This document shows positions 41,619 through 64,000 of a DNA stretch of 64,000 bases, one piece after another. Positions within the stretch are counted from its first letter, which is position 1; every line of letters begins with the position of its first letter. The stretch is from Bacteroidota bacterium (GTDB lineage Bacteria > Bacteroidota > Bacteroidia > Chitinophagales > Chitinophagaceae). Below the pieces are notes generated by a model. It saw nothing but the letters and a program-made list of their open reading frames with translations. It was not told the origin of the DNA and searched no databases. The stretch covers positions 54,330 to 118,329 of the forward strand of contig CANGFA010000003.1 of the NCBI GenBank assembly GCA_947453145.1. Reading direction: 5' to 3'. Made by a program: the position numbers and the translations under genes.

Positions 41619-41662
41619 TAGGATGCTTCGCTTTTAGTATTTTATTTTTAAATCAAATTGAG

Positions 41663-41691
41663 GAGATCAGCTCATTTCATTCGCTGATCTC
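41663..41691. repeat. Palindromic hairpin module (perfect 9-bp stem)
   Basis: GAGATCAGC-tcatttcattc-GCTGATCTC. Confidence 0.85.
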
Positions 41692-41701
41692 AGAGAGTGA
41701 C

Positions 41702-41830: not shown

Positions 41831-41916
41831 TGCGGAAGAGGAGATTCGAACTCCCACGCCCGGGTGTGGGCGCTACCACCTCAAGGTAGTGCGTCTACCA
41901 ATTTCGCCACCTCCGC
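41831..41916 (-). tRNA. tRNA-Leu, anticodon GAG, CCA not encoded
   Basis: Minus strand GCGGAGGTGGCGAAATTGGTAGACGCACTACCTTGAGGTGGTAGCGCCCACACCCGGGCGTGGGAGTTCGAATCTCCTCTTCCGCA; 86 nt, long variable arm, CTACC-TTGAGGT-GGTAG anticodon arm. Confidence 0.97.
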
Positions 41917-63132: not shown

Positions 63133-63579
63133 TTAAAATCGCTTTCTGCCAGCTTCATCAAATATATTAATGGGGGCTCTAGGATGCCTAGAACTAATAC
63201 CGTAATTGCAAGCATCCGTAGGAAAAATACATTGGTCTTCAATAAACCATTTCCCACCTCTATTTACAAATAAGGCGCCCACATAGCAACAGTCATGACT
63301 TTCATCTTGTGGGAAAACAATTTCTCTTCCGTCTTTACGTTCTGCTTTTCCTGTAAAATAAGCATAGCCGCCACCTACTTTAAAATGATTTACAACGTAA
63401 ATAAATTCTTGTTTATACCAAGTATACATTTCCGATCTTAATAAATCAAGCATCATGGTTCTATCCTTTTCGTTAGCAGCATTCCTTACCTTAAAATCAT
63501 AAATCATTTGAGCGTTTGTAGCAGTATTCATGAAAAACAAAAAAGCTATTAAGCTTAAAATAATGCGTATTTTTTGCAT
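63133..63579 (-). CDS. Hypothetical exported protein
   Basis: Signal peptide; DCCYVGALFVNRGGKWFIEDQCIFPTDACNYG. Confidence 0.7.
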   Translation of the reverse strand: MQKIRIILSLIAFLFFMNTATNAQMIYDFKVRNAANEKDRTMMLDLLRSEMYTWYKQEFIYVVNHFKVGGGYAYFTGKAERKDGREIVFPQDESHDCCYVGALFVNRGGKWFIEDQCIFPTDACNYGISSRHPRAPINIFDEAGRKRF

Positions 63580-63625: not shown

Positions 63626-64000
63626 TTTCAGGACTCCCTCGTCCTTCGGACTCGGAGTTCCTTCAATAGTCGGGCGTACCCAAACCCTATTTCAGGACTC
63701 CCTCGTCCTTCGGACTCGGAGTTCCTTCAATAGTCGGGCGTACCCGAAACCTATTTCAGGACTCCCTCGTCCTTCGGACTCGGAGTTCCTTCAATAGTCG
63801 GGCGTACCCAAACCCTTTCAACAAATCACTTCGTGCTTTGTTGGGGACTGCCGACTCACTGCGTTCGTCGTCTTCCCTTACTTCAACGAGGGGCGTACCC
63901 AAACCCTATTTCAGGACTCCCTCGTCCTTCGGACTCGGAGTTCCTTCAATAGTCGGGCGTACCCAAACCCTTTCAACAAATCACTTCGTGCTTTGTTGGG
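63626..64000. repeat. Modular tandem array of palindromic cassettes with constant GGGCGTACCC linker (continues past window)
   Basis: 64-bp unit starting at 63626, 63690, 63754, 63909; linker at 63672, 63736, 63800, 63891, 63955; two copies of a CAACAAA…TTTGTTG hairpin at 63816 and 63971; 155-bp higher-order period. Confidence 0.95.

Follow-up and report, generated by a model that had tools for sequence, protein, structure and literature searches.

A hairpin array at a contig end is the amplified tail of a structured, probably mobile element that sits behind tRNA genes of Bacteroidota

What is the array of short palindromes at the end of the stretch of Bacteroidota DNA that we analyzed (64,000 nucleotides, hereafter the window)? 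The initial annotation had reported five linkers of one sequence, GGGCGTACCC, that join three kinds of hairpin module, and had interpreted the array not as a simple satellite but as a family of structured elements that move or recombine, or else as a structured RNA that is processed. The linkers are all there (at 63672, 63736, 63800, 63891, and 63955), and the spacing and the order of the modules (A-A-A-B-C-A-B) are also as described. If one mismatch is allowed, 0.63 matches to GGGCGTACCC are expected per shuffled window, and six were never reached. This linker is specific to its locus and has no other occurrence in its own genome. We rejected it as a signature of the family because it is present at the tRNA-Leu(CAA) array only (see below), and we defined the family by structure instead.

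The window ends at base 118329, which is the last base of contig C3 (the genome assembly is 2.13 Mb in 57 contigs and is 95% complete). The end of C3 and the start of contig C12 overlap by 44 bp, and C12 then leads into a minus-strand gene for tRNA-Leu(CAA). This junction lies inside a repeated unit, hence the two contigs are only putatively adjacent. Their adjacency is supported by the order hscB - tRNA-Leu(CAA) - array - amidase gene in three relatives (L110, L155, and L170), as hscB is on C12 and the amidase gene is in the window. The initial annotation had pointed beyond position 64000, and there the array would indeed resume, at the start of C12, and run up to tRNA-Leu(CAA). It seems that the assembly broke within the repeat, which left the initial annotation with only the far end: it read the wrong strand, missed the adjacent tRNA gene, and took the linker for the unit instead of the core. 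The relevant strand is the minus strand, which is the tRNA sense, and there the linker reads GGGTACGCCC, a conserved segment that follows the core.

The core is about 129 nt long and lies directly behind the tRNA. In the tRNA sense it has a terminator hairpin H1 (AAAGCC...GGCTTTTTT), then H2 with a run of U as its 5' strand, and then H3. After H3 comes a strand that is complementary to the first bases of the core, so that a closing stem (P1) encloses everything; this is followed by GGGTAAG or GGGTACG and by one or more tail hairpins, which we call type M. In these terms, the B module of the array corresponds to H3, the A and C modules to tail hairpins, and the linker to the GGGTACGCCC behind the core (Table 1). 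The array consists of repeats of the closing-stem strand, GGGTACGCCC, and a tail hairpin, and one repeat also takes in H3. In other words, it is the amplified tail of one tRNA-tail element. The amplification is local, and direct repeats suffice to explain it. The family has a second member in the window, namely the copy that had been noticed at 41.7 kb, which follows tRNA-Leu(GAG).

Table 1. Features of the two elements in and next to the window (positions are in the window unless marked C12)
Feature	Position	Strand	Remarks
tRNA-Leu(GAG), host of the second element	41831..41916	-	
Core behind tRNA-Leu(GAG): H1, H2, H3, P1	41701..41829	-	140.8 bits with model R1, of which this copy is itself a part
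Single tail hairpin, type M	41660..41700	-	Contains ATCTCCTC, a short and degenerate copy of the tRNA 3' end that is not clearly above the control
148-aa open reading frame	63133..63579	-	Neighbor outside the element, co-directional and directly downstream of the array; without a Pfam match
Tail array of the tRNA-Leu(CAA) element	63626..64000	-	64000 down to 63626 is the tRNA sense
Three A modules (span 63626..63809)	63626-63671, 63690-63735, 63754-63799	-	Each joined by the closing-stem strand and GGGTACGCCC (plus-strand GGGCGTACCC at the first three linker positions)
Module B, copy 1	63810..63846	-	Repeat of H3 and closing-stem strand
Module C	63843..63878	-	Tail hairpin, type M; GGGAAGACGACGAACGCAGTGAGTCGGCAGTCCC in the tRNA sense; near in sequence to the tail hairpins behind tRNA-Leu(TAA)
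Module A, copy 4	63909..63954	-	Tail hairpin, type M; 3' strand GAGTCCTG resembles, as judged by eye, the T-stem GATTCCTG of tRNA-Leu(CAA)
Module B, copy 2	63965..64000	-	Core 3' hairpin H3 and closing-stem strand GGGTTT; clipped by the contig end, inside the stretch identical to C12:1-44
Core part of the tRNA-Leu(CAA) element, and tRNA	C12:1-128 (array into core); C12:130-213 (tRNA)		Continuation of the window array

As the initial annotation had proposed, we built a covariance model and scanned this genome and other Bacteroidota, which gave many further copies with covariation. The consensus of eight cores from this genome has 26 of 47 pairs changed on both sides, and the folds of single cores surpass those of shuffled sequences by 5.7 to 8.4 standard deviations. 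In an alignment of 64 copies, 95.4% of the cells could pair and there were double changes at 43 of the 47 pairs, in 685 cells, versus 185 in shuffles (none of 500 shuffles reached any of these measures). A second and more distant set of copies repeated this result, and all helices of the core are kept by compensatory changes. In the tRNA sense, mispairs are much more often G-U than A-C (105:12 in the set of 64 copies, and 59:13 and 78:22 in distant sets; the alignments were fitted to the structure model and can favor G-U over A-C), while overlapping matches on the antisense strand had ratios of only 8:8 and 5:5. A palindrome that is maintained on both strands would give equal numbers, so the excess of G-U implies selection on the tRNA-sense single strand. 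Strand-specific compensatory changes beyond the controls are what a structured RNA would show, and these results point to a structure that is selected in the single strand, most simply as RNA, with the proviso that single-stranded DNA would leave the same traces in sequence.

The strand asymmetry bears on another account, in which palindromes grow at terminators by template switching during replication, there is no selected product, and covariation is due to correction of the palindromes. Everything in these elements is palindromic, some have hairpins within hairpins, and tails amplify freely, all of which would fit. Correction of palindromes is strand-symmetric, however, and should give equal numbers of G-U and A-C; this account also offers no reason for the link to tRNAs or for so exact an insertion (both below), and we consider it very improbable. 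The nested hairpins are in L118 (at 200-330), L030, and L032 (the last two behind tRNA-Arg(ACG) and tRNA-Ser(UGA)), where further hairpins lie in H2 and seem to have been inserted into hairpin loops.

The cores are tied to tRNA genes. The covariance model had nine strong core matches in this genome, and eight of them were directly behind a tRNA and on the same strand. The ninth (on contig C50) has no tRNA; it lies against the end of a coding sequence on the reverse strand. A survey of the tRNAs of this genome found the core behind those for Lys, Met, Arg(UCU), Cys, Leu(UAA), Leu(CAA), Leu(GAG), and Ser(GGA), another copy that is clipped by a contig end behind tRNA-Glu, and divergent versions behind Arg(ACG), Ser(UGA), Pro(GGG), and perhaps Pro(UGG). 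In a wider set of 162 copies, 124 are within 20 nt behind a tRNA identified by ARAGORN and 16 more, mostly tandem units, are further downstream; of the 22 that are left, several come after a fragment of a tRNA 3' end or after a tRNA that escaped ARAGORN. Two loci with a missed tRNA are L116 and L124, where the tRNA-Leu(UAA) upstream of the core is apparently split by a group I intron. We also note that tRNA-free cores at C50 (L046, 143-271), L109, L111, L145, and L245 abut, on their upstream side, a reverse-strand coding tail that resembles "VASIGASLEEFAxDVRAIL", which is possibly a second kind of insertion site. This C-terminus looked like the tail of an integrase, but we failed to identify it as such.

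The family is widespread. At least 23 of the 25 genomes from the same genus that were listed in one draw carry the core; in another draw, several genomes lacked it, so it is not universal in Sediminibacterium. Within the order, we found it in at least 77 of 399 genomes and at least 50 of 160 genera, and across the phylum in at least 29 of 393 genomes and at least 23 of 179 sampled genera, some of them in families that do not belong to the class. (The counts for the order and the phylum are lower bounds, as few candidates were scored per genome.) Rfam has no family other than tRNA at the element sites in the window and in 15 element loci. No sequence in IMG/VR has the exact pattern of the commonest H1, which is a narrow test for virus-borne copies. 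We found no description of tRNA-tail elements in the open-access literature, where most subscription papers are absent.

How do the copies come to be behind so many tRNAs? At many loci in genera other than Sediminibacterium, the unit ends with a repeat of the final 17 nt of its host tRNA, a stretch that starts at A58 of the T-loop and stops one base past the discriminator. The copy is perfect at L257, L259, L261, L262, L270, L271, L279, L285, and L287, and these perfect copies beat every other tRNA type as a control. A duplication of fixed length at the tRNA 3' end (17 nt from A58) is thus present at nine or more loci. In L257, L260, L261, L262, L285, L287, and L107, a plain terminator comes after the repeated 17 nt and is apparently the displaced original. 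There are also exact tandem units: three of 159 bp in L270 and four of 153 bp in L271.

The clearest case is next to ung. In genome G257, tRNA-Arg(UCU) is followed by an insertion of 159 bp, then a slightly diverged 17-nt copy (AATCAATCCGGGGTCAC), and then AAAAGCGAGGTCAATACGGCTTCGCTTTTTTAC. In G443, whose Ung protein is 96% identical to that of G257, the site is empty: the same tRNA end leads directly into the same terminator and flank. The tRNA in G257 is left intact by the insertion. The other genomes of this genus in which we saw the tRNA next to ung also lack the core, so an insertion in G257 is the simpler reading. This is the only occupied/empty pair that we found at close range, and the argument for gain rather than loss rests on the distribution in the genus. 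The site has some of the features of a MITE, as the element is short and non-coding, with a target-site duplication and an empty counterpart. The complete genome G017 has plain terminators behind several tRNAs that carry the element in the genome of the window. Within Sediminibacterium, copies behind orthologous tRNAs are mostly inherited, and the 17-nt copy has decayed. We consider three points to be established: the linkage to tRNAs, the fold with its strand-specific covariation, and insertion with duplication of 17 nt at one clean site, with many other sites consistent with this. Together, many copies per genome and across the phylum, very strong covariation, and the clean occupied/empty site back the core of what the initial annotation had proposed, a structured family rather than a simple satellite; that an RNA is produced or processed remains a supposition.

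The tRNA-Leu(CAA) site shows how a copy changes once it is in place. The core is behind this tRNA in some 45 genomes of the Sediminibacterium group, with H1 nearly constant. The stem-loops of H2 have been swapped as whole blocks, and the tails range from no repeats to several, with the window's array among the longer ones. Like it, a number of the other loci reach a contig end. Across L149-L204, which share this orthologous site, the swapped H2 stem-loops are of at least four sequence types, and H1 has scarcely changed.

This persistence could mean that the structure is a trailer of the tRNA that benefits the host, that is, an RNA that tunes termination, processing, or sRNA function, is inherited vertically, and is repeated by slippage only. 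Strong covariation with strand asymmetry would be expected of such a trailer, as would retention across the 45 or so genomes, and H1 is a good terminator. There are natural models: we take 3'ETS-leuZ, a tRNA 3' external transcribed spacer, as a comparison case, and tRNA 3'ETS and dual-terminator sRNAs (rrA/rrB/rrF) are similar to the element in that they have the potential for RNA behind a stable-RNA gene and between two terminators. In the E. coli rRNA operons, small RNAs lie between two terminators (PMC8144298). However, those are fixed host loci, whereas the elements are many, insert and disappear, and have one common fold. The plain terminators at orthologous tRNAs of G017, the clean empty site, decayed copies at tRNA-Leu(CAA) in L196 and L198, and the failure of cores to stay with one tRNA type across genera all argue against a host trailer. 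We view it as a real possibility, if an unlikely one.

The tie of cores to tRNA types can be quantified. Across genera, the similarity of cores behind the same tRNA type is 0.642, versus 0.641 for different types, and 195 of 500 permutations reach this. Cores behind different tRNAs are more alike within one genome (0.716) than between genomes of a genus (0.691). Since the element is not tied to one tRNA and yet each copy ends with the right tRNA end, the 17 nt look like a target-site duplication that was probably copied from the target. There is one feature of the tail that does follow the tRNA: in the last hairpin (M), the 5' strand matches, as a complement, the 3' strand of the T-stem in the tRNA of its own locus better than those of other tRNAs (0 of 500 permutations). 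We had also suspected, from the Lys and Cys loci, that the tail mimics the 5' strand of the acceptor stem, but permutation tests gave no support to this. Of the likenesses between tail and tRNA that we tested, only the complementarity to the T-stem survives.

We propose that the tRNA-tail element is a small mobile element (about 140-160 bp), usually without genes, that inserts into the 3' ends of tRNA genes, and that the array in the window is an amplified tail; we think that this is probably correct. Upon insertion, 17 nt would be copied from the 3' end of the target tRNA. H1 would replace the displaced terminator, so the tRNA would stay functional and the insertion would be tolerated. A folded single strand, which might be read-through RNA from the tRNA or single-stranded DNA, would be recognized by the machinery for mobilization or processing. 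The direct repeats would then permit tandem and partial amplification, as in the window. Further points run counter to this. Some copies, including the one on C50, are not behind a tRNA; the genome of the window has no match to a Y1 transposase, a reverse transcriptase, or Cas1 (below); and if termination at H1 is efficient, then RNA beyond H1 would rarely be made, which would speak against the RNA route.

What enzyme might move the element? Stem P1 pairs the ends of the element as an inverted repeat would, and we found no autonomous relative that bears a transposase. The initial annotation had suggested a RAYT/Y1 transposase, and we found none: Y1 transposases (PF01797) have no match in this 95% complete genome. 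This also counts against describing the elements as REP/BIME-type repeats that are mobilized by RAYT. Like REP, BIME, and REPIN sequences, the element is short, present in many copies, hairpin-rich, intergenic, and amplifying, and its mismatched hairpins and GAGC-AAA-GCGAG-like loops are reminiscent of them. Unlike them, it is tied to tRNA 3' ends, duplicates 17 nt, and has a large fold of several helices that covaries strand-specifically. The 124 of 162 copies near a tRNA are not the dispersal irrespective of tRNAs that REP or BIME sequences would give. We find this account hardly credible.

Reverse transcriptase (PF00078) and Cas1 (PF01867) each had no match in this genome or in 14 of the 15 other Sediminibacterium genomes listed. 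This counts against a retroelement (a group II intron, a retron, or a SINE-like element) and against insertion of the casposon type. Some casposons insert at tRNA 3' ends, where they duplicate about 14-16 bp of the target. A casposon encodes Cas1 and is kilobases in length, in contrast to the roughly 150 bp of the element and the lack of a Cas1 match in its own genome.

Prophages and ICEs at tRNA genes also form a direct repeat of the tRNA 3' end and restore the tRNA, and the elements could be cassettes of a tyrosine recombinase (similar to those of integrons or prophages) whose attachment site is the T-arm and 3' end of the tRNA, perhaps as a folded single strand. The T-loop is a usual site for integrases, and the 17-nt direct repeat begins there; both junctions are on the 3' side of a hairpin loop (the T-arm and M), and the loops of M are variable. 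But an attachment site carried by the element would bind it to one tRNA type, and cores are not sorted by type across genera (the 195 of 500 permutations above). The unit also has neither the integrase nor the cargo of a prophage or ICE. We noticed no integrase gene beside ordinary units, and an integrase-like gene in L240 is part of a larger island. Recombinases of this kind are common, but we rate a tyrosine recombinase as rather unlikely here. Loci L098, L103, and L119-L121 suggest larger integrative islands at some of the tRNAs that also host elements, which we considered as carriers of the element and set aside, as no integrase was noticed at ordinary units. A separate observation is in L237-L238 (G009:C21:84794-102690), where segments of about 13.5 kb and 4.2 kb lie between copies of the 3' half of tRNA-Met, with an element core behind each copy. 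The segments have NosD-like, ABC-transporter, and probable copper-related genes, and are possibly tandem genomic islands at one tRNA.

The remaining candidate is a GIY-YIG endonuclease. In one unit of the tRNA-Ser array of L325, a GIY-YIG gene (PF01541, 4e-17) takes the place of H2-H3; the flanking repeats are the same, and the first hairpin is nearly so. In L301, which has the same ung site, a GIY-YIG gene (1.6e-14) lies between tRNA-Arg and a copy of the 3' half of tRNA-Arg. Such units are candidates for autonomous relatives, and non-coding units might be gene-less derivatives of a homing-type system that is driven by the endonuclease. However, these are the only two cases in all of the loci that we scanned; near the elements of the window's genome, the loci examined had none. 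Also, the borders in L301 differ, as the copy spans the whole T-arm and part of the anticodon arm. We give homing a small chance, and the GIY-YIG insertions are only a lead to the mobilizing enzyme.

If mobile insertion is the right explanation, is it confined to Bacteroidota? The closest precedent is the RtT or tyrT 178-bp repeats of E. coli (RF00391), which also form tandem units behind a tRNA gene. In E. coli K-12, the 19-nt sequence AATCCTTCCCCCACCACCA, which runs from A58 of tRNA-Tyr to its CCA end, bounds units of 175-178 bp; in our E. coli locus (L320), it is at 145, 320, 439, 617, 795, and 973. So the border is a direct repeat from A58 to the tRNA 3' end in both, of 19 bp with the encoded CCA in RtT and of 17 bp without it in the Bacteroidota element. 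A pairing of the form GGAT...AATCC closes the end of the RtT unit, as in the element. On the other hand, RtT has a different core sequence and fold, is at one tRNA only, and has no H1 right behind the tRNA. RF00391 has four matches in L320 and none in the window or in 15 element loci, and our model R2 has no match in L320. The two share an architecture and are not one family.

The number of RtT copies differs between strains, with 0-3 in the genomes listed, one of which has no annotated unit. At tyrT in E. coli NZ_CM149577.1 (2704050-2704282), tRNA-Tyr is annotated and RtT is absent, and the joined flanks match over their full length; this is an empty or deleted RtT site. We know of no description of RtT as mobile. 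A different kind of tandem unit is behind tRNA-Leu(UAA) in L340, with copies of a T-arm-like hairpin and of the tRNA end.

We also offer a broader proposal, which we hold tentatively and think somewhat more apt to be wrong than right: that an RNA-based class of mobile element parasitizes the tRNA genes of Bacteroidota. Its members would enter at the 3' end, rebuild that end and the terminator, be transcribed from the tRNA promoter, and spread as a folded single strand, and E. coli RtT would be a surviving example outside of the phylum.

If our explanation for the tRNA-tail elements is true, then many tRNA genes of Bacteroidota bear an unannotated structured element that supplies their terminator, and these elements influence where contigs break and record insertions. 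It also suggests an origin for the RtT repeats. Borders from A58 to the 3' end are common to two phyla, which suggests that small elements have a general means of persisting harmlessly at tRNA genes. And it raises a tractable question, namely which enzyme recognizes both the T-arm and the look-alike hairpin M.

Finally, the other end of contig C3 also has a tandem repeat (L010 29-271, or G000:C3:29-271), which gives SLPRRMTMRSIGNPKT repeats if read as protein. The start of contig C5 (L031 1-268) has the tail array of a tRNA-Cys element, which this repeat resembles. It thus seems that C3 is broken within arrays of this kind at either end.
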